From the IMG/VR virus record IMGVR_UViG_3300034198_005031, positions 1 through 35,448 of that record: DNA of 35,448 bases, one strand, 5' to 3'. How positions within the stretch are numbered: the first letter of the stretch is position 1; each line of letters begins with the position of its first letter. Position numbers and translations under genes: made by a program. A model generated the notes under the pieces. That model ran no database searches. It was not told the DNA's origin and was given only the letters and a program-made list of their open reading frames with translations. Positions 3,323-21,900 of this stretch are shown one piece after another. Origin of the DNA: a virus.

Positions 3323-3655
3323 ATGGATCAACCTGAGTTCCTTGCTGCAGTCTTTAATCATTATGGGTTAACGCTTCCGTTGGGTGGAGAGAAATCAATT
3401 CTCTGCCCAGTTCATGATGATTCACATAAGTCTGCTTCAGTGAACTCAGACAAGGGTGTATGGGTATGTTATGCCTGCCAAGGATCTGGGTCTGGTATCC
3501 AGATCGTTATGGCAAAGCAGAATCTTTCATACCCTGACGCTCTTCAATGGGCTGAGAAGAACATTGGAACCATGGTCACCCGCTCTGCCCCAAGTCGGGG
3601 CAGGGTGGGTAGATCAGGGCGTTGGATTCCACCACGATTAAGACAACGATCATGA
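3323..3655 (+). CDS. DnaG-type primase zinc-binding domain protein (CHC2)
   Basis: 110 aa. The zinc ribbon is complete: C28-P-V-H31 and C49-Y-A-C52, with SGSGIQIVM after the last Cys, as in the CHC2 domain of DnaG and T7 gp4. The rest is a basic, low-complexity tail. The catalytic Toprim half is encoded separately at 4179-4823, so the primase is split. The zinc domain normally picks the template trinucleotide for primer start. The ATG at 3323 follows the previous stop by 3 nt and the stop overlaps the next gene by ATGA. Confidence 0.9.
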   Translation: MDQPEFLAAVFNHYGLTLPLGGEKSILCPVHDDSHKSASVNSDKGVWVCYACQGSGSGIQIVMAKQNLSYPDALQWAEKNIGTMVTRSAPSRGRVGRSGRWIPPRLRQRS

Positions 3656-4182
3656 CAACTATCATTGGTGTACAAGCTGACGATCATTGCATTATCGCTG
3701 CCGACTCCCGCGCCACCGATGACGGAGGCAGACCATACAGTCATGTATCCATGTCAAAGATTACCAAGAACGGTAAGTACCTTATTAGCGGAGCCGGGTC
3801 AACACTGCCTTGCGATATCATTCAACACATCTGGCGACCACCATTGCTGGCTGCCAACAAGAAAGACTTATATCATTTCATGATTACCGAGGTGGCTCCC
3901 AGTGTGCGAGCCTGCCTTAAGGAGAACGGGTATACCCCCAAGGAATCAGATGAATCTGATTTCCAATTCCTTATTGCATTGAACGGTAACCTGTTTGAGT
4001 TCGATGACTCTCTCTCGGTATTGTTGCGAGATGATGGGCTGTATGGCATAGGGTCAGGTTCGCCGTATGCTCTTGGTGCCATGCAACAGGGCGCAGTATG
4101 GAAGAAAGCTTTGCAGATTGCTGCTAAGAATGACGTGTATACTGCACCTCCATTCATTATGCAGAGGCAGGATAAGGCATGA
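3652..4182 (+). CDS. HslV/proteasome-beta-like Ntn hydrolase
   Basis: 176 aa from the ATG at 3652 (ATGA overlap with the zinc-finger gene); the frame is open further up, but this start puts TTIIGV right after Met, as in HslV. After Met removal Thr1 would be the nucleophile. An Asp at position 17 (in AADSRAT) matches the conserved Asp17, and a Lys near 33 (K35 in SMSKI) fits the catalytic Lys. The C-terminal part, GIGSGSPYALGA then ALQIAAKNDVYT, matches the closing part of HslV. Length is that of HslV (about 175 aa). No HslU, Mpa/ARC or other unfoldase is present in the window, so it may use a host ATPase or act alone. Its place between two primase parts is notable. Confidence 0.85.
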   Translation: MTTIIGVQADDHCIIAADSRATDDGGRPYSHVSMSKITKNGKYLISGAGSTLPCDIIQHIWRPPLLAANKKDLYHFMITEVAPSVRACLKENGYTPKESDESDFQFLIALNGNLFEFDDSLSVLLRDDGLYGIGSGSPYALGAMQQGAVWKKALQIAAKNDVYTAPPFIMQRQDKA

Positions 4183-4823
4183 GGATCAACCCTAAGCTCA
4201 TGGAACTCTGGACTAAAGCATCCCACCAATACCATGCTAGCTTGGCTGGCTCACCAGCAGAAGAGTACCTGCATAACCGGGGAATCTTAGAAGGTTCCCA
4301 AAGGTTCCGTCTTGGTTACGTTGCCGAGGTAGCGCCCGGTCATGAGGACAGGCTCAGGTACCACCTATCCATCCCGTACATTACCGAAGCTGGGGTGGTG
4401 GGGTTCAAGTTCCGCAGGATAGACGGAGGCGAACCCAGGTACATGATACCCACCGGGCAGAAGCAACATCTCTATAACGTAGATGCCATCATCAACGCTG
4501 TTGGTAGGGTGCTAGTAGTAGAAGGCGAGATCGATGCGATCTCTGCCACCCTGGCTGGGTTCCCCGCCGTTGCGGTAGCCGGGGTCAACGCATGGAAACC
4601 CCACTTTGCCCGATGCTTTGATGGCATAGGTGAGGTGATCATCTGTACGGACAATGATGCTAAGGAAGATGGGTCAAACCCGGGTCAGGATCTAGCACGC
4701 AGATTACAGGATGCAATTCCTCAATCCATACGCGTGTCGCTATCGCCTGGTATGGATATTAATGGTATGATTTGTGATCAAGGAGCTCAAGCATTGGCAA
4801 GCCTAGTCAATGCTATTGATTAG
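4179..4823 (+). CDS. Primase Toprim (catalytic) domain protein
   Basis: 214 aa. The Toprim motif VLVVEGEIDAI (Glu115, Glu117) and the later IICTDND (Asp158, Asp160) form the metal-binding site. The upstream segment YLHNRGI...FRLGYV is the start of the DnaG RNA-polymerase domain. There is no zinc finger and no helicase domain, so it must work with the zinc protein at 3323 and with a separate helicase, perhaps the ATPase at 1015. The ATG at 4179 overlaps the stop of the protease-like gene (ATGA). Confidence 0.92.
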   Translation: MRINPKLMELWTKASHQYHASLAGSPAEEYLHNRGILEGSQRFRLGYVAEVAPGHEDRLRYHLSIPYITEAGVVGFKFRRIDGGEPRYMIPTGQKQHLYNVDAIINAVGRVLVVEGEIDAISATLAGFPAVAVAGVNAWKPHFARCFDGIGEVIICTDNDAKEDGSNPGQDLARRLQDAIPQSIRVSLSPGMDINGMICDQGAQALASLVNAID

Positions 4824-6036: not shown

Positions 6037-6763
6037 ACCAAAGAGCAAAGGCAGTATCATCCTTGGATGGTGCGACAATGGATTAGTGGATGGCAAGTTC
6101 ACCGAAGGCATTGTCTATTCCATCCTCACCTCTGGTGTACCCATCGCCAGTGCTGCACGCGTACAAGGAAACCAGATAGGTCGACAACGCCAAGTCCTTT
6201 TCGACATGTGGCACAAGAGATCAGACTTCGAATGGATACTATGGGTTGACTCAGACATTGTGATTACCAATGAGGTGCTGCGACTAGTATGGGATAGCGC
6301 TGACCCAGTAACACGACCTGTTGTTAGCGGAACTTACTTCATCTCCAAAGAAAACGAACAGTCACTTATGGAACCATACCCAGCCCTGTTCATGGCACAC
6401 CCGGATGACCCGTACATGATGGCATACGTCCACCCCTTAACACCCAACGAGCTGCTACCAGTGGACTACGCTGGCTTCGGGTTCCTATTGATGCACCGTT
6501 CAGTAGCAGACAAGATGCGTGAGCATCATGGTGAACGTCCATTCTTTATGGAAACAGATGGCGAAAGCTCAGACTCAAACAATAAGTTTGTATCGGAAGA
6601 CATTCGATTCTTCAAACTCATGAAGGATGCTGGCATCCAACTCTATGCACACACTGGTGCAGTGGTTAAACATATGAAACGCTTTGCGTTTGATGCAGAG
6701 TTCTATAAATTGTATTGGATTACGCAAGCCAACTCGGAACAAAAAAAAGAGGCTGAGTCATAA
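6017..6763 (+). CDS. Glycosyltransferase, GT-A fold (GT2-like)
   Basis: The GTG at 6017 is preferred because GGAGG stands 6 bases upstream; a TTG at 6014 adds one residue. The protein begins with a beta strand (SIILGWCDNG) and has the metal-binding DxD motif in WVDSDIVI (Asp78, Asp80). Downstream there is an aromatic/acidic acceptor region and FVSEDIRFFKLMKDAGI, as in family 2-like transferases. No membrane segment is visible. The target could be modified DNA bases, phage protein or host surface sugar; the sequence does not decide. The last codons and the stop lie inside a terminator hairpin. It starts inside the end of the sigma-like gene. Confidence 0.88.
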   Translation: MATHRTKPKSKGSIILGWCDNGLVDGKFTEGIVYSILTSGVPIASAARVQGNQIGRQRQVLFDMWHKRSDFEWILWVDSDIVITNEVLRLVWDSADPVTRPVVSGTYFISKENEQSLMEPYPALFMAHPDDPYMMAYVHPLTPNELLPVDYAGFGFLLMHRSVADKMREHHGERPFFMETDGESSDSNNKFVSEDIRFFKLMKDAGIQLYAHTGAVVKHMKRFAFDAEFYKLYWITQANSEQKKEAES

Positions 6764-6786
6764 GACTCAGCCTCTCTCTTTGTTTA
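6748..6786. terminator. Bidirectional intrinsic terminator between convergent operons
   Basis: A perfect 12-bp stem (6748-6759 with 6764-6775) closes a 4-nt loop that contains the TAA of the rightward glycosyltransferase gene. Eight A's precede the stem (6741-6748), which read as a U-run on the leftward transcript, so it is a strong terminator for the leftward operon. On the rightward strand it is followed by CTCTTTGTTT, a weaker tail. Confidence 0.88.
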
Positions 6787-6942
6787 CCATTTGCTCGTGT
6801 ATTTACCTAACGCTTCTTGCATTCTTCGGTAACGCTGAATAGTTTCTCGCTCGCCTTCGTCTCTGCCATAATGCCTACCTACCCAATAGCCAGTGGCACC
6901 AGCAAAAATTTGCATGAGCAAAGTGAATCCGTTGTAGAACAT
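6784..6942 (-). CDS. Small hypothetical protein, 52 aa, hydrophobic N-terminus
   Basis: The leftward ATG at 6942 overlaps the TAA of the upstream gene (TAATG), with a GGGAGAGAA ribosome-binding site. Residues 6-22 (FTLLMQIFAGATGYWVG) are mostly non-polar and could be one membrane segment, followed by a charged tail with many Arg, Glu and Lys. It is the last gene of the leftward operon and ends next to the terminator. No family recognised; a small membrane-anchored protein is a guess. Confidence 0.7.
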   Translation of the reverse strand: MFYNGFTLLMQIFAGATGYWVGRHYGRDEGERETIQRYRRMQEALGKYTSKW

Positions 6943-7244
6943 TACTTCTCTCCCATCCGTTGAAGGAATAAGTCCGGGTCTTCCAGCTTAGTGATGATAC
7001 CTCCGCCAGATTTGCTGATCTTATCTGAAAATTTTTCAGCTTGTAACCGGGTGCTGAAATCTCCGGCTGCTAGGTACCATGACTCTATCTTACCTACATA
7101 TACAAACGATTCTCGTTTGTTCCTTGCCATGTCTAACGCTTCGATGATCTCTTTAGCCAGATCGGTAGCGCCTTCTGACCCAGGGTTATCCGGGTCTAGA
7201 AGGTTGGCTACCAACTTGATCTCAGTGGGTCTTGGCTTTGCCAT
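6942..7244 (-). CDS. Hypothetical protein, 100 aa
   Basis: Starts at the ATG at 7244 (MAKPRPTEIKLV), which overlaps the stop of the upstream gene by ATGA; the open frame extends to 7262 but that start lacks coupling. The centre (VGKIESWYLAAGDFSTRLQAEKFSDKI) reads as a beta-strand plus helix. A perfect 8-bp hairpin with a TTC loop lies inside at 7102-7120. No family recognised. Confidence 0.75.
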   Translation of the reverse strand: MAKPRPTEIKLVANLLDPDNPGSEGATDLAKEIIEALDMARNKRESFVYVGKIESWYLAAGDFSTRLQAEKFSDKISKSGGGIITKLEDPDLFLQRMGEK

Positions 7245-7396
7245 CAGTACCCTTCGATGCACTTCACAAACTTGTAATGAAACTGCACACGCTCAATCAG
7301 ATCTTCTTCTTTGATGGCTTCGATCTCAGCGTTGCAATAACTGCAACGATGCATTAGTAAACCATCTACTTCTTTAGCCTCGGTTATTATGCTCAT
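7244..7396 (-). CDS. Zinc-ribbon-like microprotein, 50 aa
   Basis: Start ATG at 7396 with a strong GAGGAGG about 5 bases upstream. The motif HRCSYCNAEIEAI gives a CxxC pair, and a single Cys near the end (KFVKC) may be a third ligand, so a small metal-binding protein is likely. It is joined to both neighbours by ATGA overlaps. Partner and function are unknown. Confidence 0.72.
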   Translation of the reverse strand: MSIITEAKEVDGLLMHRCSYCNAEIEAIKEEDLIERVQFHYKFVKCIEGY

Positions 7397-7473
7397 GCTT
7401 CCTCCTCTACGCAGGTATGAATTTCCCAAACTCCTTCTTTCATTTCATCACCACACCAATTACATGTGCTCAT
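7393..7473 (-). CDS. Very small Cys-rich microprotein, 26 aa
   Basis: Frame read from the ATG at 7473: M-S-T-C-N-W-C-G, ending HTCVEEEA before a TGA that overlaps the next start (ATGA). GGGAGG stands close upstream of the ATG. The C-x-x-C pair plus the later His and Cys could bind one zinc ion. Support is from the ribosome-binding site and its exact fit between coupled neighbours; length alone would not be convincing. Confidence 0.6.
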   Translation of the reverse strand: MSTCNWCGDEMKEGVWEIHTCVEEEA

Positions 7474-7649
7474 GCTGCCTCCCTCCCCTTGCATCCGCCC
7501 CATAATTGGTAACCAATTATGACATCTCCTGTTTGTTTGAACTCACGAACCAGTTGAATCCAGTGCGTTCCCCCTACTGGGGGATGGTAAATAATGCACT
7601 TGCATTTACTCTTCACAATTTCTTGTGATGTATCTATTACTTTGCTCAT
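7470..7649 (-). CDS. Hypothetical protein, 59 aa
   Basis: ATG at 7649 with GGAAGGA upstream; both ends are joined to neighbours by ATGA overlaps, so it sits in a tightly coupled run of small genes (7900 down to 6784). The protein starts MSKVIDTSQEIVKSKCKC and ends GGCKGREAA, with three Cys. The codons for DVIIGYQLW cover a 21-bp palindrome at 7501-7521. No family recognised, but IIYHPPVGGTHWIQL may be a short beta domain. Confidence 0.7.
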   Translation of the reverse strand: MSKVIDTSQEIVKSKCKCIIYHPPVGGTHWIQLVREFKQTGDVIIGYQLWGGCKGREAA

Positions 7650-7900
7650 GCTATTCCTTCCAGTGGTAGGGGTATCTGCTCTGCCTTATGTGTATGCTCT
7701 CTCAGATAAAGGTCGCAACGCTCTTGCGTCAGCTCTTGATAATTCATGTGAGCACCAGCCATGTAAAGCACCTCATCCTCATCATCTCCGATACCATAGG
7801 TATCATGGTACGAGCAGTACCATGACCACCCTGCTACTGGTCGGATATGTATTGACTCTGGTCGTACTGCTATCTCATTCTTGCTTATCAGTTTTGCCAT
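7646..7900 (-). CDS. Hypothetical protein, 84 aa
   Basis: The frame starts at the ATG at 7900 and its last codons overlap the next gene. The protein begins MAKLISKNEIAVRPESIHIRP and has an aromatic stretch GWSWYCSYHDTYG followed by an acidic DDEDE segment. It overlaps the upstream gene by 26 nt. No recognisable domain. A hairpin with 9-bp arms lies inside at 7803-7825. Confidence 0.72.
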   Translation of the reverse strand: MAKLISKNEIAVRPESIHIRPVAGWSWYCSYHDTYGIGDDEDEVLYMAGAHMNYQELTQERCDLYLREHTHKAEQIPLPLEGIA

Positions 7901-8132
7901 TGATCTCCTCCTTCATACCTTGGTACATGATGATGTCCACCATGATGGCACACAGATTGTCATGAAATTTGCGATCAATCTCCGTAGTTCCATTAATACC
8001 TGAACGCAGTACCTTGTCATACAGATCTAACGTATCGATAAGATACTGAGCCTGCTCAGCAGTGAGTGCTGGCTGCACCCAACTGTCTCGCTTATTAAAT
8101 ATGTCTACATATTTCTGCAACGGGTTATCCAC
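7875..8132 (-). CDS. Hypothetical protein, 85 aa
   Basis: ATG at 8132, overlapping the stop of the DUF932-like gene by ATGA. The product is a charged, mostly helical small protein (LTAEQAQYLIDTLDLYDKVL, then CAIMVDIIMYQGMKEEI). No signal peptide or domain seen. Coupling suggests it is made with the DUF932 protein. Confidence 0.75.
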   Translation of the reverse strand: MDNPLQKYVDIFNKRDSWVQPALTAEQAQYLIDTLDLYDKVLRSGINGTTEIDRKFHDNLCAIMVDIIMYQGMKEEINGKTDKQE

Positions 8133-9127
8133 TAGATTCCTTTCGTGAGTAGGGATAAAGCACGACGCTTCTGCTTGTCAAACGTACCGTTTACGGTACG
8201 CTCAGCTCGAATCGCTGCATCCTTGTGACTGTAGTGATCGATGTATTCCACGATGGCTTGATACGCAGCGAACTCGGTACCTTGGATGTTCTCTTGTGTA
8301 CCAGTAGCACCAAAGTAGATCTTTCGGGCTGTCTGTCGGGCATGCTCTGCCTTGTTGTACTGTCGCCGTTGACCAGTGCTGAGCATGGAGTAAGGCATAC
8401 CTTCAACCTCACTAGGTAGTGACCACATCTTCTTGAAGATCTCATTGACCTGGTCATCATTTACCTCACGACCCAGAAGGTAACGAGAGATACTCTCGTA
8501 CTCTTCAATGCCCTGATAGATGATCGGGATTACCTTACGGATATCCTCGACCTGCACCTTAGCGTTGGTCGTATGCTTGAGCGAATAGGTTGCTGTCTTG
8601 CGGAAGATGCCACTGATCTGGTTGATGCAGTGAATCCGCTCCACAATTGGGGCTATCTGCAGCGATGACGAACCATCATGTGAGGTACGAGCCAACAGGT
8701 ATGCCTTGTGTGGATCACCCTTCACCTTCACACCTTCAGGTAATTCCATCACCATGTAAACCGATGCACCTTTGTTGATCTCCCCAGCATAGGCATACCG
8801 GGCATCACCACTGTCTACTAATCCATCCAGTGCCGAGAACATCTCGGTGTTCTGGAAGACCTGATACCTACCACCTACTGTGCCAAGCACAGACTGACTA
8901 CCGTCAGCATTGGTACGGACAGTGGCAAACTTGCCACCCACCGGAAGGGTAGTCACACCCTCATTGCTGAGGGCTAAAGCCTGGAGTTCAGCAAGCTGAA
9001 CGTGCCAGGTCAGACCTGCCTGTTCGGCTGCACCTCGGGCAGAGGTAGCCTCAACTGCAGTACCCACCTTGGAGTGGGCATTAACACGACGGCTTACCGC
9101 CTCAGCGGTTGACCTATATGCTGTCAT
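8132..9127 (-). CDS. DUF932-family phage/plasmid protein
   Basis: 331 aa with the features of the DUF932 (TIGR03299) family: an N-terminal helical part, then ATVRTNADGSQSVLGTVGGRYQVFQN, then SVYMVMELPEGVKVKGD and a central LLARTSHDGSSSLQIAP...RIHCINQI. Members are common on phages and plasmids; their biochemical role is not established, though they are often found with DNA metabolism genes. ATG at 9127 with AGGAG upstream in the pattern AGGAGAATGAAATG, also seen for other starts in this operon. Confidence 0.88.
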   Translation of the reverse strand: MTAYRSTAEAVSRRVNAHSKVGTAVEATSARGAAEQAGLTWHVQLAELQALALSNEGVTTLPVGGKFATVRTNADGSQSVLGTVGGRYQVFQNTEMFSALDGLVDSGDARYAYAGEINKGASVYMVMELPEGVKVKGDPHKAYLLARTSHDGSSSLQIAPIVERIHCINQISGIFRKTATYSLKHTTNAKVQVEDIRKVIPIIYQGIEEYESISRYLLGREVNDDQVNEIFKKMWSLPSEVEGMPYSMLSTGQRRQYNKAEHARQTARKIYFGATGTQENIQGTEFAAYQAIVEYIDHYSHKDAAIRAERTVNGTFDKQKRRALSLLTKGI

Positions 9128-9164
9128 TTCATTCTCCTATCTGTTTGGTTGTGAGAGTATTGTC

Positions 9165-9422
9165 TCATAGTCGGCTGTCGAAATCAAGTAACGCTTCGTG
9201 CAATTCTTCATAATAATGACCTGCCTCACACACAATCTGATCATCTGTGATGCGAGCTAACCAGGTTACATAAGGGTCAAAGGTTCTCACCCTCACCCCA
9301 GTCTCCGGGTTCTGGGTATCCTCCACCCAAAGGCAGAGGACAACCCAGCCCAGATTGTCACGCTTCATATCGATGACGATCGCACCATTCTTAGTGCGAT
9401 CACCTCTCCTGATCGTATCCAT
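9165..9422 (-). CDS. Hypothetical protein, 85 aa
   Basis: The ATG at 9422 follows directly after the TAA of the upstream gene. The protein starts MDTIRRGDRTKNGAIVIDMKRD and looks like a small all-beta (SH3-like) fold (GWVVLCLWVED, VRVRTFDPYVTWLARI), with an acidic C-terminal helix (CEAGHYYEELHEALLDF). No known family. A hairpin with 8-bp arms and an 8-nt loop lies inside at 9378-9401. Confidence 0.72.
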   Translation of the reverse strand: MDTIRRGDRTKNGAIVIDMKRDNLGWVVLCLWVEDTQNPETGVRVRTFDPYVTWLARITDDQIVCEAGHYYEELHEALLDFDSRL

Positions 9423-9932
9423 TTATGCCTCCTTTACTTGGTAGATGTGAGTACTTTCGATGACGTAGTGGGGATCAGATGTCACCACGTTGTCGTCGCA
9501 ATCCCACTCGATGCTACTAACACCGATCCCTTCGGCAAGTTCCCGGGCTTCATCTTCGTTGCTGGCTGTGACGGTAACAATACTTGCGATGTTATGCACC
9601 ATCTCTACTTGGTAGTCCCTAAGGAATAACAGTGAACTGTTGAACACATCAAGCAATACCTCATCAAGGAACTTGATGCTGATGTCATCTGTCTTGCTCA
9701 ACTTTTCATCTTTGATGTGATCATTGATCTGCTCAAACAGTGAGCGAATCTTCTCTCGATGGTCGACTATTGTACGCGCTTGATTCTTTATGCGATCAAG
9801 GTCTGATTTGATACGTTCGATCAGAGCCTTCTCTACATGATTTGCTGGCACAAAAGTTTCCACATTATCAAGGATAAACTTTTGCATGGGAGTAACTGTT
9901 GCTGGGAATGGTGTTTCAATTGCTTCGGTCAT
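9423..9932 (-). CDS. Hypothetical coiled-coil protein, 169 aa
   Basis: ATG at 9932 with AAAGGAAATGAA upstream. Residues 40-85 (ALIERIKSDLDRIKNQARTI, then a second Arg/Lys/Glu-rich helix) have heptad-like spacing and probably form a coiled coil. The C-terminal 60 residues are a beta/alpha module (VTVTASNEDEARELAEGIGV). The gene begins about 44 bases beyond the hairpin repeat at 9976-9992. No family recognised. Confidence 0.75.
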   Translation of the reverse strand: MTEAIETPFPATVTPMQKFILDNVETFVPANHVEKALIERIKSDLDRIKNQARTIVDHREKIRSLFEQINDHIKDEKLSKTDDISIKFLDEVLLDVFNSSLLFLRDYQVEMVHNIASIVTVTASNEDEARELAEGIGVSSIEWDCDDNVVTSDPHYVIESTHIYQVKEA

Positions 9933-9970
9933 TTCATTTCCTTTCGGTTGGAGTTGGCTAACACTTCTTA

Positions 9971-9997
9971 TATATGCACAGCTTCGCTGTGCTATCT
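9971..9997 (-). repeat. Intergenic hairpin repeat, copy 1
   Basis: A perfect 7-bp stem (9976-9982 with 9986-9992) and 3-nt loop, with TA-rich flanks. On the leftward strand the hairpin tip reads GCGAAGC, a sequence known to form an extraordinarily stable DNA mini-hairpin. It lies between two leftward genes, 11 nt after the stop of the upstream one. Copy 2 at 11095-11111 has the same stem and similar flanks but the inverted loop. No U-run follows, so a classical terminator is unlikely. Confidence 0.75.
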
Positions 9998-10003
9998 ATA
10001 TGA

Positions 10004-10312
10004 TTAAGATCCGCAAGTACAGTTGATCTCTTCCATGAGATTGGATTCGACCATCCATTCTCTTAGGTGTTCCACTAAGAGTTCTGACCCGTACTCAATG
10101 GTGAATCCCTCTTTGTCGGCATCCCGATATAAGGCAGCGAAGATCTCCTTATCGGTAGCATTTACTATCAACTCAGTATCATCCTTGAATCCAAGGATGA
10201 CAACCCATACATACACCCAGATTAATGGCAAGCCAAGCGGGATCTTAGACACAGCCTTAGCAGTATCTTGCAAAGCAAGATAAGCCTTTCGTTGATCGCG
10301 GTTCAATTTCAT
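10004..10312 (-). CDS. Hypothetical protein, 102 aa, possible membrane segment
   Basis: The ATG at 10312 is preferred because AGGAGCGAA precedes it; an in-frame ATG at 10324 would give an ATGA overlap with the Gp88 gene and cannot be ruled out. The segment IPLGLPLIWVYVWVVILGF (about residues 24-42) is strongly hydrophobic and fits one transmembrane helix, followed by an acidic, helical C-terminal part ending with two Cys (CTCGS). Three hairpins lie in or near its coding sequence (10179-10200, 10264-10282, 9976-9992). Role unknown. Confidence 0.7.
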   Translation of the reverse strand: MKLNRDQRKAYLALQDTAKAVSKIPLGLPLIWVYVWVVILGFKDDTELIVNATDKEIFAALYRDADKEGFTIEYGSELLVEHLREWMVESNLMEEINCTCGS

Positions 10313-10320
10313 TTCGCTCC

Positions 10321-11046
10321 TCATTTCTTACTCGCACTGAATCGGATGTCGGCTTTGCCGAACACACACAGTCCACAAGAAACACAAGCAGAACCATTGG
10401 TGGAAATCAATGGAATTGATTTGTTATTCTCCGGACATTTAGCACCAGGCTTGCCGGTAAGTTCAAGCATCATCGGCTTAGATGCCTCAAAAGTATCGGC
10501 AAGATAGGCAAGGTTTACCTTGGTCTTACGCTTGAGATCATAAGCAATCTCCTTGTTGTCATCATCTGTACTAAAGTACAGTGACAGGTTGTCAATTCCA
10601 TTAAGCCATGTAATGGCAGACGGAACTCTTGTATACACCCAGAACTGTACGTCTGTATGCTTCTCGATTACATCACGCCAAGCCCTAGCGTAAGTATCAT
10701 TAAAGAAGTCACCATCCCAATGGATCCGGAACAACTTCTCAGCACCATGCTTGTCACAATCCTTGATGAAATCAAGGATCATATCGTCCAACAAGTCAAA
10801 CATCTGATTGTAATCTGCATCCTTGAGGAGATTCCAATTGTGTAACAATACATCTCTCACACCCTTGTAAACCTTCTCCAACTTCCCGGCATAACAGATC
10901 TTCAGACACACTGAGGTAGCACCAGGGCAAGAGTAAGCCTTGCCTGCTGGAAGACCAAAGGTATTGGCGATCTTGCTGGTCTTGCCATTCGGTGACACAA
11001 GATTAGTCACCTTACGATCATTCGAACGCTTCAACTTCTGTTCCAT
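10321..11046 (-). CDS. Gp88-family phage protein
   Basis: 241 aa. Residues 27-52 (ANTFGLPAG, SCPGATSVC, KICYAG) are the signature of the Gp88 (gene product 88) family known from mycobacteriophages, with conserved Cys residues; the middle has RIHWDGDFFNDTYARAW and a C-terminal Cys trio (CVSCGLC). The Cys pattern suggests a metal or Fe-S site. No function is established for the family, and a radical-SAM-like role would be speculation. ATG at 11046 with AAAGGAG upstream. Two strong hairpins occur inside the coding sequence (10404-10422 and 10759-10779). Confidence 0.85.
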   Translation of the reverse strand: MEQKLKRSNDRKVTNLVSPNGKTSKIANTFGLPAGKAYSCPGATSVCLKICYAGKLEKVYKGVRDVLLHNWNLLKDADYNQMFDLLDDMILDFIKDCDKHGAEKLFRIHWDGDFFNDTYARAWRDVIEKHTDVQFWVYTRVPSAITWLNGIDNLSLYFSTDDDNKEIAYDLKRKTKVNLAYLADTFEASKPMMLELTGKPGAKCPENNKSIPLISTNGSACVSCGLCVFGKADIRFSASKK

Positions 11047-11082
11047 TGCATTGCTCCTTTCGTTGATTGAATTTGCCGAACC

Positions 11083-11118
11083 CTATATATCTATGCACAG
11101 CGAAGCTGTGCTATCTAT
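11083..11118 (-). repeat. Intergenic hairpin repeat, copy 2 (inverted loop)
   Basis: Same 7-bp stem as copy 1 (11095-11101 with 11105-11111) with near-identical TA-rich flanks on both sides. The loop is GAA on the plus strand here but TTC in copy 1, so the palindrome core appears flipped while the flanks keep their direction. It lies 3 nt after the TAG of the 126-aa gene and about 50 nt before the start of the Gp88 gene. Confidence 0.75.
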
Positions 11119-11495
11119 GATGCGTAATGGTACCCGAATGGAGTCCAAGTCTTCTTGCCTCCGGCATTCGGAATCTCATGAACAATTCCGCCACGCTGAA
11201 TGAAAGCCTTCAGTATCTCATAAGAGATACTCTTATCATGCCCACCCAAGTGCCATGAATACACCTCATCCTCTCCGAGGATGTAGTCATAGTTCTTGTA
11301 ATCGTAAATAGTTCCAACGGTTACACCGTTCTCATCTTCGAATGCAAGCACCCACTCAAAGTTAACTTTGTCACCTGCGTAGAACTCTTGCTTCCCGAAA
11401 ACTCTGTCAAGTTCCCGGCGAGTTGTTACCAAGTCACCTTGGTAAGACGTGCCATCGGTATTAATCCATGCCTCATTCATGCCCTTTAACTTCAT
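11115..11495 (-). CDS. Hypothetical protein, 126 aa
   Basis: Start ATG at 11495, following the TAA of the upstream gene closely, with GAGAGGG upstream. The protein is acidic and aromatic (FEWVLAFEDENG, TIYDYKNYDYILGEDEVYSWHLGG) and predicted mostly beta. It ends AGGKKTWTPFGYHYAS. No known domain recognised. Hairpins at 11212-11231, 11267-11283 and 11426-11445 fall inside its coding sequence. Confidence 0.75.
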   Translation of the reverse strand: MKLKGMNEAWINTDGTSYQGDLVTTRRELDRVFGKQEFYAGDKVNFEWVLAFEDENGVTVGTIYDYKNYDYILGEDEVYSWHLGGHDKSISYEILKAFIQRGGIVHEIPNAGGKKTWTPFGYHYAS

Positions 11496-11496
11496 G

Positions 11497-11655
11497 TTAT
11501 GCCCTCTCTATTACAGTGTAGGTTTCATCATTGCCATCCAATTGATCCCAATCAGATTGCTGAGCAATCTTAAGGGCTTCATCTGCATCCTTGACATTAT
11601 TAATGTCAACTTGCACCTCATACATGACTGTCTTTACGACAGTGTAATTAGCCAC
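11497..11655 (-). CDS. Hypothetical protein, 52 aa
   Basis: GTG start at 11655 with GAAGGAG 6-7 bases upstream. The protein begins MANYTVVKTVMYEVQVDINN, then an acidic helical part (VKDADEALKIAQQSDWDQLD) and ends TYTVIERA. The strand-helix-strand form is typical of small phage proteins of unknown function. It overlaps the upstream gene by 8 nt. Two palindromic hairpins (11554-11570, 11591-11609) lie inside it. Confidence 0.72.
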   Translation of the reverse strand: MANYTVVKTVMYEVQVDINNVKDADEALKIAQQSDWDQLDGNDETYTVIERA

Positions 11656-11818
11656 AGCATTCTCCTTCGCTAGTATCGGCGCAGCATTCTGAACAGAATG
11701 CTTCGTTATCTTTCATGCTATTGCGACAACCATATTCATCCATTGTGTTGGTCTTGCATTTAATGCAAGCAACTTGAGCCAGTTCTTCGGCAGACATATC
11801 GTAGATATGTTTAGACAT
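11648..11818 (-). CDS. Cys-rich small protein, 56 aa (metal-binding candidate)
   Basis: The ATG at 11818 is chosen as the first start that removes an implausible upstream extension. The protein has eight Cys: CIKC, YGC, CSECC, then ECCG at the C-terminus. Cys pairs of this kind bind zinc or an Fe-S centre. No family name can be given. It overlaps both neighbours by 8 nt. Hairpins at 11683-11702, 11753-11769 and 11794-11810 lie within the coding region. Confidence 0.72.
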   Translation of the reverse strand: MSKHIYDMSAEELAQVACIKCKTNTMDEYGCRNSMKDNEAFCSECCADTSEGECCG

Positions 11819-12020
11819 GGGGGTTCCACTGATCATCGGCATAACGTTTAGCGTCGAACGGAGCAGTCTCCCCATAGAAGTAACGGGGACGCTGACCCGG
11901 AATAGCCACCTTGAAAAATGCAAAATCTATGTCAGAGACATAGACCTTAGCGTTATCGTTGCTCATCACGCCAAGCCCCATCCACTGCTTGACCTCACTT
12001 ACCTTCGGTTTAGTCACCAT
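11811..12020 (-). CDS. Hypothetical protein, 69 aa
   Basis: ATG at 12020, overlapping the stop of the 57-aa membrane protein by 7 nt. It starts MVTKPKVSEVKQWMGLGVM and has a beta-rich centre (AKVYVSDIDFAFFKVAIPG, then PRYFYGETAPFDAKRY). No domain recognised. A hairpin with 8-bp arms and AGA loop (11926-11944) lies inside. Confidence 0.72.
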   Translation of the reverse strand: MVTKPKVSEVKQWMGLGVMSNDNAKVYVSDIDFAFFKVAIPGQRPRYFYGETAPFDAKRYADDQWNPHV

Positions 12021-12187
12021 TCTTCAACCTCTCTTGGTAGGGTCTTCCATGTCTCTTCCATAAAAGCAGAACTCTGTTCTGCTATCTTGACGCGCCTGAT
12101 CACTGTAAGATCACACAGGAAAGACACGAACAGGATCGAACAGACACCGCTAAGCAAACCAATAGCAAACCAATCACCTTCAAACAT
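12014..12187 (-). CDS. Small single-pass membrane protein candidate, 57 aa
   Basis: ATG at 12187 with GAAAGGTGGAAAC directly upstream; an upstream ATG at 12241 only adds a charged stretch and lacks a good site. Residues 5-29 (WFAIGLLSGVCSILFVSF, then LCDLTVI) form a long hydrophobic segment, followed by a charged tail. It is the first gene of the leftward operon. Near the start the DNA carries a tandem 11-bp repeat (AGCAAACCAAT twice, 12154-12175), and a hairpin lies at 12065-12083. Holin or membrane regulator are only possibilities. Confidence 0.72.
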   Translation of the reverse strand: MFEGDWFAIGLLSGVCSILFVSFLCDLTVIRRVKIAEQSSAFMEETWKTLPREVEEW

Positions 12188-12479
12188 GTTTCCACCTTTC
12201 GACCTTGCCGACCTTGTTGCCGACCCTTCCTTATCAAGCAAAGGTTCCCTTTGCTATCAAAGAAAAGACACACACACGCGAGCTGAACCTGCCACTTGCC
12301 CATCCGCTGCCACCTGCTACCTGCCAATTCGCCATTCTTTACATACACATGATCGCATCAAGATCAAGATCAAGACAAGAAACGCTCACACAGCCAGCCA
12401 GAATTGACATTGAGTAGCCGATACGATAAGATGATGCCATCAAACCAACTCCGGTCTGATCAAATCGAAAGGCAACATC
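12188..12479. promoter_or_regulatory. Divergent intergenic control region
   Basis: About 290 bases between the start of the leftward operon and the rightward 85-aa gene. It holds a perfect 8-bp hairpin with TTC loop (12237-12255), a tandem ATCAAG repeat (three copies at 12357-12374 plus a partial copy), and the rightward promoter described separately. A leftward promoter should also lie here; on the minus strand TTGATC and TATGTA stand 16 nt apart inside the ATCAAG repeat region, but the match is weak. Longer plus-strand frames crossing the region oppose the leftward genes and are not counted. Confidence 0.6.
12404..12432 (+). promoter_or_regulatory. Sigma70-type promoter for the 85-aa gene
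   Basis: The -35 box is a perfect TTGACA (12404-12409), followed by 17 bases and a TAAGAT -10 box (12427-12432). Transcription would start near 12439, giving a leader of about 40 bases before the ATG at 12480. GAAAGG at 12467 serves as ribosome-binding site. This is the best consensus promoter I found in the window. Confidence 0.75.
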
Positions 12480-12737
12480 ATGAAAACATTCTGGGCGAGC
12501 AATGATCTATTGATCAACCTAGACGGGCTCATCGAAGATGTTCTAGGAGAGTTCAGCATCTCTTCATTCGAAGAGATTCCGGATCACCTAGTAGTTCCAA
12601 AATTCTTTTGGAAAGATGCACAGATCGACCAATTCATTCTCTTAGAGAATGGCACAGTGGCTCTGGTCATTGATCTAGAAGATCACCGACTCACCGGGCT
12701 ATTGACTGGTGGCAGCATCATCCGCCGAACTATCTAA
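12480..12737 (+). CDS. Hypothetical protein, 85 aa, single-gene transcript
   Basis: ATG at 12480 with a good ribosome-binding site. An acidic protein with strand-rich C-terminal half (IDQFILLENGTVALVIDLEDH); no known domain. It has its own promoter and its own terminator and is the only gene in the control region, so it is likely expressed separately, perhaps at an early stage. A regulator or host-takeover protein is a reasonable guess but nothing in the sequence proves it. A short inverted repeat (AACTATC, TAAA, GATAGTT; 12728-12745) straddles the stop. Confidence 0.75.
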   Translation: MKTFWASNDLLINLDGLIEDVLGEFSISSFEEIPDHLVVPKFFWKDAQIDQFILLENGTVALVIDLEDHRLTGLLTGGSIIRRTI

Positions 12738-18808: not shown

Positions 18809-18984
18809 AAATTTTGCAAAAGTTTGAAGACAACCTTGAGTATCTTGGATTTGAGATGGCTCCAGTTGCTTGGGATTTAGCTCGTTTTCCTTTTAAGAAT
18901 GATGCAGACCGAACCGCATTGCTTGAAGAACTGACCGCAAAGAAGGAGGCTGTGCCTAATGACGGACAGCAACCAACCGCTTGA
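18805..18984 (+). CDS. Small hypothetical protein, 59 aa
   Basis: GTG at 18805 overlapping the previous stop (GTGA), with CGGAG about 10 bases upstream. The frame reads MKILQKFEDNLEYLGFEMAP and ends PNDGQQPTA, overlapping the next gene by 26 nt. It looks like a small helical protein. Coupling on both sides and codon choice like its neighbours favour a real gene. Confidence 0.68.
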   Translation: MKILQKFEDNLEYLGFEMAPVAWDLARFPFKNDADRTALLEELTAKKEAVPNDGQQPTA

Positions 18985-21900
18985 TTGGTCGTTATGGAAC
19001 AGCAATATGCCACAGAATGCTGCTGGAGAACCAGCAGCACCTGTATCTACAATTGATGGTTTTAAAAAAAAGCAAAAAGATGATGGCACCAAGGTTGGTG
19101 GAATTGAATCTGCTGTCCTGCCCAAGTTAGAAAGTGCTATCAAGTCTGGTAAAAGCAATGCTGCTACTGGATGGCTCGTTAACCCAGCAATGCGCGTGAT
19201 GGAAACATTCGGCAAGCGTGTAGTACAACCCTTGACTCAAGGTGTATCCACTGGGTTCCTTACTGTAGAAGCTTTGCAGCAAGGAAAGGGAGCAGAGTCT
19301 TTCAGGTTTGCTAAAGAACAAGCCAAAAAGATTTCTATGGGTCAAGCTTTGGCAACCGAAGTTGGTCAAGCATTGGGTGGTGGATTTATTCCATCTAGTG
19401 TTACCCCTACCTTTATGGATCCAGGTTTTAATGTTTTTGATGATGCTCAAAGAACCAAAGCTTTTCGTGATGAATGGTGGGGAATAGCAGCATCTGGAAG
19501 CACTGATCTTGCATTAGCTGCTATTGGAACCAAGGGTGCTGGAACATTAGTTAAGAGTGGTGTAAAAGCTGCCCTGGGTCCTAAGAAAATTTATACCCCA
19601 CAAGATATGAATGTCTTTAGGAACAAGGCACAAGAAACTGTTGATTGGGCTAAAGCTGCAGATGGAACACCACCACCATCTGGTCTTGGTGTATTAATTA
19701 ATAATGCTGTTAAAGAAACAGATGTTACTAAACTGTCTGCAAACCCACTTGTTTCTGAAACATCTAATCCTTATCGTACGGCAACCATTCTATCTCGTTT
19801 AGATAATCATGAAGATGTTGCAAACTATCTTCTTGCTGAGCGTGGGGATGCTCAGGCATTTAATAACTTTTTCAAAAGCAAGCCACTTGCTGCTGACCAT
19901 TTAGATAACTATGGTATTAATAATTTTGAACCAATTTCAGATTGGTCAACGATTCATTTAGATACAATCAGTCCTAAACTTACTGATCGTTACCAAGCAT
20001 TGATCGACGCTAAAGCAAAAACTGATCCTAATTTTGCTGCTGCTCTTGATGACTTTAAATCTAAAGCAACTTCCGGAGTAATCGAAAGTTATCAACCTGG
20101 TCGTTTTGGCTTTGCAGAAAATATTGCTTTACAGAAGAAGAATCTTTCTCTTGCTGCAAAGTACGGTGATATTAAACTTTTTGGAAAAGATGCTGTAGAC
20201 AGCGGTTGGAAAACTTCTGTTTATCAATCAGAAACATATGATCGTGCTATTAGAACAATAGCATGGGTTGGATCTGGAAGACCTCAGGGTCATATTAACA
20301 TTTCTAATCCTCGTAAATTTGAAGCATCCAATGATCTCCTTTCAGATCTTAATCGCCTTCAAATGCTACGCGGTGCTTCTGGAGCTCAATTCAAAAGAGA
20401 CATGGTCAAGAAATTTCTTGATGCTCAAGATGATACTCAACGTGCCATTGCTCTTGCGGATATTGAAAAGCAAGTTATGTTTAAGCTTGCAGATAGTTAT
20501 GGCGTTAAGTCTGTTGGCGGGATAACCACGGATAAAGATGCTGTAGATCAAATTACGCGTTGGCATGTAGGCACTTCTCAACGCAGACAAACCATTAAGC
20601 AGTATGCAGTTAATCATGGTTTTATACCAGATGATAACGGCAATCTTAATGTTACTAATTTTTGGTCACCCACCAATGAAGCTCAAACTGTTCCCATGCT
20701 TGATTTCCGCAAGCTTGAAATTGAGGTAATGTTACAGACAAAGCGCCTTGCTGGCGCTGCTGCCCCTATATCCAAGGGACAGATAGCTGGAGCATACGCA
20801 TCTAGAGCGTTAATGTCCACTGGTCAAGTTCTTGATTTAGCAAATATGGTTTTTAATAGTTTGAACCTTTTGCGCGTTGCTTACATTCCCAAGAACTCTA
20901 TGGTTGATCCGCTTGCTCGCGGAAGCATGGCTATGGAAAGCACCGAACTTATTAACAATATTTTTCCAGGAGCATCTAATGCTGCATACAATTCTTCGTT
21001 AAGAGCTCAGTCCCTTGGTCGCTGGATACCGGGAACTGCTGGTTCTACATCAAGAAAAATGGAAAAAGCAATTTCCAAAGAAATGGAACTTCTTAAAGGA
21101 GATCTAGATAAGGCTGTTCCAGCATGGGAAACTGCTCAAAAAGATTATGATATTGCAAACTCTTTATATGTTAGCGCTAAAAACAAGCAAGCAAAAGCTG
21201 CTGCTAAAGCGAATAAACTTAAAACACCTGACGCTGAAACTGCTATGTTTAATGCAGACAAAGCTGCTTGGGAAGCAGAAAAAGAATTATCAAATGCCAA
21301 AGATATTTTGGATAGAACTGGATCAAGCGTCCAGGGACTTTCTACCGTTATGGAAAAGCACCGGGCTAAATTAACTCAATCCGTTATTGCTACTGGCAAT
21401 AAGAATAGATATCGACATCTTGGTCAAGATGCTGAGATCATTGAGGTAAATGGTAAGAAGTACAACATCGCTGGACTTGCTGATCCAAATGTTCGTGGTG
21501 CTAACGCCTATATGTCCGAAGTTGATTCAGCACAAAACTTTATTAATACTGCTATGCAATCTGAAATTAGCAGAAACCTTAGTTCTCGTGGAGCACGATT
21601 TGTAACCATAGCAAGCAATGAAGGCAAACCATATTGGAATGCTTTGACCCACGTTGCTAATCGTCAAGTTCGCAATGAACTTGATATGCCTATTGGTATG
21701 ATGATGCGTGGAGATGATCCTGCTTCCATCCTTAAATGGCTTTATACTGGAGATGCTGGCAAAGAATACCGTCGTCGTATGGCTTCTCGGGCGGGTAGGG
21801 ATTTAACTCAAGAAGATTTTGCCACATGGATTTCTACCACTTCAGATAAACTGAATAAAATGTATCCAAGTCAAGAACTTCGTGATCTTATTCTACAAAG

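Follow-up and report, generated by a model that had tools for sequence, protein, structure and literature searches.

The leftward gene block of virus record IMGVR_UViG_3300034198_005031 carries one short, perfectly paired hairpin per ~190 bases, and the majority of these lie within genes. Matched changes in the two arms among related sequences point to DNA phages using RNA shape in a way not described before. A first-pass annotation of the window (positions 1 to 35,448 of the record, 35,448 nt) had claimed 17 hairpins with three-nucleotide loops and six with four- or five-nucleotide loops; a recheck of the window sequence recovered 17 of 17 and six of six, each where it had been placed. An overlapping hairpin at 11220, absent from that list, brings the total with three-nucleotide loops in 6784-12260 to 18. 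The outer loop bases are able to pair as well at 7501, 11554, 11591 and 11753, and likewise at 8097 and 8183. A strict count gives 14 three-nucleotide-loop hairpins with arms of at least 7 bp, and loop lengths from 6 to 20 give 0-2 each.

Synonymous codons of the leftward coding sequences (CDSs) were permuted, preserving the protein and the pooled codon use. These CDSs contain 10 three-nucleotide-loop hairpins with arms of at least 7 bp, versus 0.40 +/- 0.60 in the shuffles (highest value 3 among 400), and 25 hairpins with loops of 1-5 nt, versus 1.54 +/- 1.26 (maximum 6). The first-pass annotation had named a codon-preserving shuffle beforehand as the check on its claim; when run, the shuffle did not reproduce a similar number of hairpins. 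Both the claimed excess over chance and the idea that codons are fitted to hairpin retention agree with these counts. Late genes (18 kb) also exceed their shuffles, by a smaller margin (9 vs 1.2, 26 vs 6.1), in line with the earlier impression that they are poorer in hairpins. Nearly all leftward genes carry at least one hairpin, and density is about equal in coding and non-coding sequence (5.07 vs 6.74 per kb). Regular spacing was considered and rejected: the median interval is 144 nt, and the evenness is only mildly above random (CV 0.89 vs 0.98). The features are as follows.

6784-12260, minus strand: leftward block of small genes, DUF932 and GP88, bearing the array (ORFs, density, convergence, codon shuffles)
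6748-6775, unstranded: 12-bp perfect hairpin AGAGGCTGAGTC, loop ATAA, between converging genes (sequence, density step)
7025-7039, minus strand: short-loop-class hairpin in CDS
7102-7120, minus strand: array hairpin, 8 bp, 3-nt loop, CDS (ORF 6942-7262)
7330-7348, minus strand: array hairpin, 7 bp, 5-nt loop, in CDS
7501-7521, minus strand: array hairpin, 9 bp, 3-nt loop, CDS 7470-7649
7803-7825, minus strand: array hairpin, 9 bp, 5-nt loop, CDS 7646-7900
8097-8114, minus strand: array hairpin, 7 bp, 4-nt loop, CDS 7875-8132
8183-8200, minus strand: array hairpin, 7 bp, 4-nt loop, DUF932 CDS
8483-8499, minus strand: array hairpin, 7 bp, 3-nt loop, DUF932 CDS
8922-8937, minus strand: array hairpin, 4-nt physical loop, DUF932 CDS
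8986-9001, minus strand: array hairpin, 4-nt physical loop, DUF932 CDS
9662-9678, minus strand: array hairpin, 7 bp, 3-nt loop, CDS 9423-9932
9976-9992, minus strand: class I intergenic hairpin, GATAGCACAGC-GAA-GCTGTGC on that strand
10179-10200, minus strand: array hairpin, 9 bp, 4-nt loop, CDS 10004-10324
10264-10282, minus strand: array hairpin, 8 bp, 3-nt loop, CDS 10004-10324
10404-10422, minus strand: array hairpin, 8 bp, 3-nt loop, GP88 CDS
10566-10581, minus strand: array hairpin, 4-nt physical loop, GP88 CDS
10759-10779, minus strand: array hairpin, 9 bp, 3-nt loop, GP88 CDS
11095-11111, minus strand: class I intergenic hairpin, GATAGCACAGC-TTC-GCTGTGC on that strand
11212-11236, minus strand: two alternative overlapping hairpins (11212-11231, 11220-11236), CDS 11115-11495
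11267-11283, minus strand: array hairpin, 7 bp, 3-nt loop, in CDS
11426-11445, minus strand: array hairpin, 8 bp, 4-nt loop, in CDS
11554-11570, minus strand: array hairpin, 7 bp, 3-nt loop, CDS 11497-11655
11591-11609, minus strand: array hairpin, 8 bp, 3-nt loop, CDS 11497-11655
11683-11702, minus strand: array hairpin, 8 bp, 4-nt loop, CDS 11648-11818
11753-11769, minus strand: array hairpin, 7 bp, 3-nt loop, CDS 11648-11818
11794-11810, minus strand: array hairpin, 7 bp, 3-nt loop, CDS 11648-11818
11926-11944, minus strand: array hairpin, 8 bp, 3-nt loop, CDS 11811-12020
12065-12083, minus strand: class I hairpin, GATAGCAGAAC-AGA-GTTCTGC on that strand
12237-12255, minus strand: class I hairpin closest to the block start, GATAGCAAAGG-GAA-CCTTTGC on that strand

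The first-pass annotation held that shape recurs and sequence does not. This is true of the array, but the hairpins at 9976, 11095, 12065 and 12237 form a sequence-conserved family (class I) that it overlooked. The hairpin at 6748-6775 is a likely bidirectional terminator, and array density drops past it. An Rfam 15 search of the window gave no match reaching the gathering score, and the position profile 3' of the stems contains no T-run, i.e., the U-run of intrinsic terminators is missing. The stems in excess consist of 6-8 contiguous Watson-Crick pairs, and their loops are mostly of 3 nt and less frequently of 4 or 5; the excess peaks at 7 bp and is absent after 8. Stem GC is no higher than in chance pairs, and longer stems are lower in GC. 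The loop-closing pair is C-G in more than half, GAA, AAA and AGA loops are frequent, and loops on the sense strand are purine-rich. The RNA-specific, extra-stable UUCG and GNRA tetraloops are not favoured. Downstream of the hairpins, class I excepted, no conserved motif was found.

The same array is present in about 30 related loci (terminase at least 82% identical), whose leftward blocks hold ~20 hairpins per 10 kb, compared with ~0.6 when control loop lengths are counted; the excess is small in more distant relatives. The recurrence of the pattern in independent contigs with intact reading frames rules out an assembly artefact. Seventy-three phage loci that share the GP88 gene but fall outside the clade have at most 7 hairpins in their richest 5,477-bp stretch (mean 2.9), compared with 18 in this block and 8-20 among clade members. 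The GP88 CDS, encoding the same protein with different codons, has 2.59 hairpins per kb in the clade versus 0.45 in other phages. The leftward families that every clade genome shares are GP88, DUF932 and small proteins without known function, and hairpins recur in numerous small operon genes that are unrelated to one another. With the convergence point set for each genome, density falls where leftward and rightward genes meet, from 38-68 per 10 kb leftward to 17.6 in the first kb beyond; a fixed 6.4-kb boundary had spuriously spread the strand signal described below into the rightward genes. A smooth gradient from terL was rejected: density is level, though raised over the first 2-3 kb, and drops stepwise at convergence. 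An explanation by the genome end was also set aside: many contigs stop shortly before terL, but at varying positions, and the end could not be fixed. The viruses bearing the array are uncultured and probably infect actinobacteria. Their nearest cultured relatives are Streptomyces phages (Beephvirinae; terminase about 43% alike), and a host search found no relative within the genome collection.

Comparison of relatives demonstrated the compensating changes that the first-pass annotation had proposed looking for. For hairpins in coding sequence, in pairs 90-97% alike, two-sided Watson-Crick change amounts to 2.53% versus 0.30% in control pairs (~8x; Fisher p about 3e-12), and one-sided change to 7.7% versus 12.8%; other regions show a weak two-sided excess at most. 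Stem divergence is about 5%, versus 11% for loops and 10.5% for flanks, and single sites that were inspected retain their shape through sequence change. Because some of the paired changes are non-silent, hairpins are sometimes preserved at the expense of an amino-acid change. Mobile hairpin insertion was rejected: in the examples inspected, hairpin-less orthologues align without gaps, and hairpins therefore arise by substitution. Template switching, or quasi-palindrome correction, is known to make and maintain hairpins in DNA, yielding two-sided changes (PMC8794818), and might account for the array with little or no function. The dominance of perfect Watson-Crick stems, the many paired changes that replace amino acids and the similar coding and non-coding densities all fit such an origin. 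We nevertheless consider it unlikely, since stems diverge at half the flank rate, the majority of changes are single or one compensated pair and not blocks, density steps at the transcription-unit boundary, and hairpin centres avoid the codon phase that pairs third positions with each other (p about 0.001, odd loops).

Strand asymmetry also bears on that origin, which predicts G.U and A.C decay products in equal number. Among hairpins with one mismatch, sense G.U versions occur at 149 sites (background 72) and sense A.C versions at 76 (background 78), an excess of 77 versus -2. At sites with a perfect member the counts are 40 and 12 (p = 1.3e-4), whereas in control pairs G.U and A.C change are equal. 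Template-switch hairpins resemble the array in their perfect stems and two-sided changes (PMC8794818), but mutation alone does not predict its one-strand tolerance of G.U. Since G.U versions exceed background on the leftward (messenger) strand alone, what is selected is a sense nucleic acid in single-stranded form, in the simplest case the leftward mRNA. G.U pairs are scarcer than in many RNAs, and absent at three hand-picked sites. The C-G closing pair was dropped as a strand marker, since it is its own reverse complement.

A sense-strand ssDNA would yield an identical strand signal, and hairpins might form in the strand displaced during transcription (R-loop control) or in the lagging-strand template. 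GNA triloops with C-G closing, very stable in DNA, are common here, and the block may sit at one end of a linear genome, terL starting 624-661 bp from the left end in related Streptomyces phages. This account appears quite improbable: the signal tracks the transcription unit, and the adjacent rightward early genes lack the strand bias that a replication-fork explanation would require. In addition, T-rich loops are favoured in DNA, yet the sense strand has more AAA than TTT loops.

Two further DNA-level readings were weighed. The window phage encodes RusA, endonuclease VII and its own sigma factor, and the first-pass annotation had suggested cruciform substrates for the two nucleases. That suggestion is unsupported and scarcely credible, because a cruciform is strand-symmetric and the signal is strand-specific; 7-bp arms are also short for cruciform extrusion. 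Hairpin promoters of phage N4 (Schitoviridae), used by a virion RNA polymerase, share a short stem, a 3-nt loop and a C-G closing pair with the array (P1 is GTTGC-GAA-GCAAC), and the capsid protein of a related phage is annotated as N4-type (TIGR04387). We regard N4-type promoters as very improbable. N4 has three, on the template DNA strand, whereas the array has dozens of sites within genes and on the sense strand, where purine-rich loops correspond to pyrimidine loops on the template, opposite to N4. The phage has a sigma factor of its own, and a sequence search, on a contig possibly partial, matched no polymerase structure in the PDB to its largest virion protein, of 1,649 aa.

We tentatively favour a reading in which the hairpins act as RNA, in a polycistronic and probably early leftward messenger whose decay they would slow. 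Among the roles listed by the first-pass annotation, RNA processing or stability elements of this messenger best match the data. The hairpins would form in the mRNA behind or between ribosomes, and many small structural blocks could slow 3'-to-5' exonucleases of the PNPase/RNase R type and hinder endonuclease movement along the transcript. This might let a long early transcript, made up of very small genes, persist long enough for host takeover. Secondary structure does protect RNA against 3'-to-5' decay (PMC7866481; PMC9927376). A minimum of about 7 pairs would be decisive and stems beyond 8 would add nothing, so that sequence and GC content would matter little. Against decay blocks, 7-bp stems should be melted by ribosomes, and such blocks would be expected chiefly at gene 3' ends, a placement that the near-equal coding and non-coding densities do not show. 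The lack of preference for extra-stable RNA tetraloops and the scarcity of G.U pairs also count against the RNA reading.

The narrow geometry may instead be what is recognized. Under this somewhat unlikely alternative, a phage or host factor would bind or load at the hairpins by reading a 7-8 bp helix, a 3-nt loop and a mostly C-G closing pair, not sequence. It might, for instance, be an antiterminator that loads repeatedly, an RNA chaperone or a marker sparing phage mRNA. The cut-off after 8 bp, the unselected GC, the common closing pair and loops, the retention of shape through sequence change and the spread over many unrelated genes are as expected. On the other hand, the clade-wide leftward families give no candidate protein, no conserved downstream motif exists apart from class I, and the need for dense packing is unexplained. 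A broader shape code is doubtful but a serious possibility: early clade transcripts would be marked every 100-200 nt, intragenically, in a standard geometry with free sequence, and codons, even amino acids, would be adjusted to retain the marks. Its phage or host reader might act in antitermination or in sparing from decay or RNA-targeting defence.

Several known systems resemble the array in part. Genome-scale ordered structure of RNA viruses likewise comprises many local intragenic RNA structures kept by covariation and codon choice; here, one small geometry (7-8 bp, 3-nt loop) is repeated in one dsDNA-phage operon. Stabilising and 3'-end stem-loops of bacterial and phage mRNAs (T4 intercistronic, exonuclease-trimmed ends) are also short, and their structure blocks 3'-to-5' exonucleases, but they stand at gene ends, one per transcript end, with UUCG or GNRA loops, whereas the array is mostly intragenic, with one triloop hairpin per about 190 nt. 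Lambdoid boxB and put antitermination hairpins are small, lie in an early phage transcript and could similarly act on transcription; they number one or two per operon and are sequence-specific, and no antiterminator was identified for the array. A literature search of openly licensed PMC papers found no description of such a hairpin array.

If the RNA reading is true, dozens of RNA elements are superimposed on the protein code of a dsDNA phage operon, invisible to annotation because only their shape is conserved, and silent recoding of phage genes may not be neutral. The array offers a natural system in which to study the function of short mRNA hairpins in bacteria. The scan used here (fixed-loop inverted repeats, codon shuffles and the G.U/A.C strand test) is applicable to any phage clade, and the about 30 related genomes of this one provide roughly 250-300 hairpin sites.

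The leftward block (6784-12260, minus strand) carries a real and unexpected feature, an array of hairpins that is found throughout the clade, is one-stranded and tied to one operon, and has a narrow geometry and pairing under selection. Besides GP88 (PF17338) and DUF932 (PF06067), the block contains numerous small variable genes. Elsewhere the 35,448 bp IMG/VR record encodes terminase, portal, capsid, primase, DnaB, RusA, endonuclease VII, sigma factor and WhiB proteins, and these genes and their order are like those of Beephvirinae phages of Streptomyces (43% terminase identity), a relative of which has a capsid protein annotated as N4-type. A search of the genome collection found no relative. 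The block matches in position the right-end leftward block of the Streptomyces phages, which includes an anti-restriction protein, and from this resemblance we infer that it is early.

The 17 hairpins with 3-nt loops and six with 4- or 5-nt loops reported in the first-pass annotation are all present at the positions assigned to them. Counting each stem once, with its tightest loop, 6784-12260 contains 14 perfect hairpins that combine a 3-nt loop with arms ≥7 bp, and 5, 6, 3 and 2 more at loop counts 1, 2, 4 and 5, respectively; physically, counts 1 and 2 are 3- and 4-nt loops in which the outermost bases are able to pair too. Control loop lengths of 6-20 give 0-2 hairpins per length. The excess survives the codon shuffle that the annotation had proposed as a refutation: with synonymous codons permuted within the leftward CDSs, 10 hairpins with 3-nt loops were observed vs 0.40 ± 0.60 (maximum 3 in 400), and 25 vs 1.54 ± 1.26 over loops 1-5. 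A smaller excess is present in the late genes (9 vs 1.2 over 18 kb).

The array is characteristic of a clade. Searching with the terminase returned ~60 loci at ≥82% identity, ~30 of which extend left enough to include the block; in these clade blocks, triloop hairpins with arms ≥7 number ~20 per 10 kb vs ~0.6 at control loop lengths. Loci whose terminase identity is 68-78% or 50% have little excess. Among 73 phage loci with GP88 outside the clade, the richest 5,477-bp stretch has at most 7 hairpins, and hairpin density within the GP88 coding sequence itself is 2.59 per kb for clade members and 0.45 for other phages, against a control level of 0.35-0.70. The Streptomyces phages Manuel, Abafar and FlowerPower (L196, L198 and L199) show a milder excess of 4-nt-loop hairpins in their leftward right-end genes (9-11 per 10 kb vs ~1), exceeding that of their late genes and perhaps representing a weaker form of the trait in cultured phages.

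Perfect palindromes are strand-blind; imperfect ones are not, since a G.U pair becomes A.C when read from the opposite strand. One-mismatch hairpins in the leftward genes have a sense-strand G.U excess of 77 sites and an A.C excess of -2; at sites perfect in some genome, G.U outnumbers A.C by 40 to 12 (p = 1.3e-4). Both change types occur at equal rates in control pairs, so biased mutation does not explain the G.U excess. No comparable bias was found in the rightward early and late genes. Hairpin density is 38-68 per 10 kb over the leftward genes and 17.6 in the first kilobase past the convergence with the rightward genes. Together with the strand bias, this ties the array to one transcription unit, the leftward one, and to its sense strand. 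The form on that strand is most simply the leftward RNA, or less simply the non-template DNA strand. Template switching (PMC8794818) may be among the sources of perfect stems, but the strand bias is not one of its predictions. N4-like promoters have the same type of loop as the array (N4 P1 is GTTGC-GAA-GCAAC), but are not supported: sequence searching found no polymerase on this contig, which may be partial, and the strand that carries the purine loop is opposite to that in N4.

The annotation had proposed that homologous genes of related phages lacking the hairpins, with no compensating changes, would refute the array; compensating changes do occur. Between clade sequences 90-97% alike, with controls at equal distances, two-sided Watson-Crick changes affect 2.53% of coding-hairpin pairs vs 0.30% of control pairs (p ~3e-12), and one-sided changes 7.7% vs 12.8%. 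For all hairpins with duplicates retained, two-sided change is 1.67% vs 0.23%. Sequences 65-85% alike show a two-sided excess of 2.2- to 3.3-fold in the leftward block, compared with ~1.35-fold in other regions. Divergence is 5% in stems, 11% in loops and 10.5% in flanks. One site of the class I hairpins described below covaries with 0 one-sided changes in 152 cells; cells are non-independent because related sequences have changes in common, and the relevant evidence is the contrasts with matched controls. The evidence is strong, and the hairpins are very probably selected on the sense strand.

In the pooled clade, the excess of 3-nt-loop hairpins over control loops rises from arm 4, peaks at arm 7 (137 vs ~9 expected), is still large at arm 8 (79) and collapses at arms 9-10. 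Stem GC (0.47) is not enriched over chance Watson-Crick pairs (0.45), and is lower in 8-9 bp than in 6-7 bp stems. Over half of the hairpins have C-G as the loop-closing pair, and GAA, AAA and AGA are common sense-strand loops. Together these data indicate that ~7 contiguous pairs are favoured, not maximal stability.

Using mechanical ORFs as gene calls, some possibly wrong, density is 5.07 hairpins per kb in coding and 6.74 in non-coding sequence. Hairpin centres shun the phase that pairs third codon positions together (23.6 vs 53 and 53; p ~0.001), as expected if stems are built from silent positions. One CDS retains the peptide EIKLVANLLDP (EIRLVANLIDP in one genome) while the codons of both arms change in step. 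Coding hairpins have 184 two-sided changes, only 33 of which a simple codon test scores as silent on both sides, indicating that some hairpins are kept with a change of amino acid.

Two classes can be distinguished. Class I (GATARCANANC-NNN-GNTNTGY) occurs 2-5 times in each of 10 related genomes, is confined to the block and its leftward strand, and is absent from an outgroup genome. The window contains four:

9976-9992, minus strand, class I hairpin
11095-11111, minus strand, class I hairpin
12065-12083, minus strand, class I hairpin
12237-12255, minus strand, class I hairpin

Stem positions 4 and 6 covary freely. These hairpins are mostly intergenic, shortly upstream of an AGG-type ribosome site and often followed by ATATATA, and could be a separate processing, start or regulatory element. 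Two more GATAACATC matches in other genomes lie inside the DUF932 gene and were rejected as class I. Class II comprises the far more numerous intragenic hairpins, which share no sequence. The window has no match in Rfam.

We propose that the hairpins form in the RNA of the leftward unit and would serve as small decay blocks spread along an early transcript made up of very small genes; a 7-bp stem would be about the shortest able to stall 3'-to-5' exonucleases. RNA structure protects from such exonucleases (PMC7866481), and Rho-terminated ends are trimmed back as far as stem-loops (PMC9927376). Against decay blocks, no clustering of the hairpins at gene ends is seen. Ribosomes would also melt them. 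A shape-reading factor and decay blocks fit the geometry about equally well, but the former has no candidate. Conserved mRNA structure is a known kind of element; the density and uniformity here are uncommon, and no description of their like was found in the openly licensed literature.

Several other features were observed. The primase is apparently in two pieces, zinc-binding and TOPRIM (3323-3655 and 4179-4823), with an HslV-like peptidase ORF (3622-4182) between them. A 1,649-aa protein (18959-23908; phrog_10618, unknown) lies between portal and capsid, has ~20% identity across Streptomyces Beephvirinae and had no relative among solved structures. A good sigma-70-like promoter (12405-12438; TTGACA and TAAGAT) points rightward toward a small gene (12480-12737) and terL. 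In clade loci the palindrome CATGTCATGACATG lies ~740 bases left of the terL start (sense coordinate 741 in locus L083) among TGTGTATG repeats, in 7 of 15 aligned loci; it is operator-like and possibly marks where the leftward unit starts. Many related contigs (L097, L103, L107, L113, L115, L117, L118, L120, L121, L122 and L152) start at varying positions 80-250 bp before terL, perhaps reflecting a genome end or a coverage gap.
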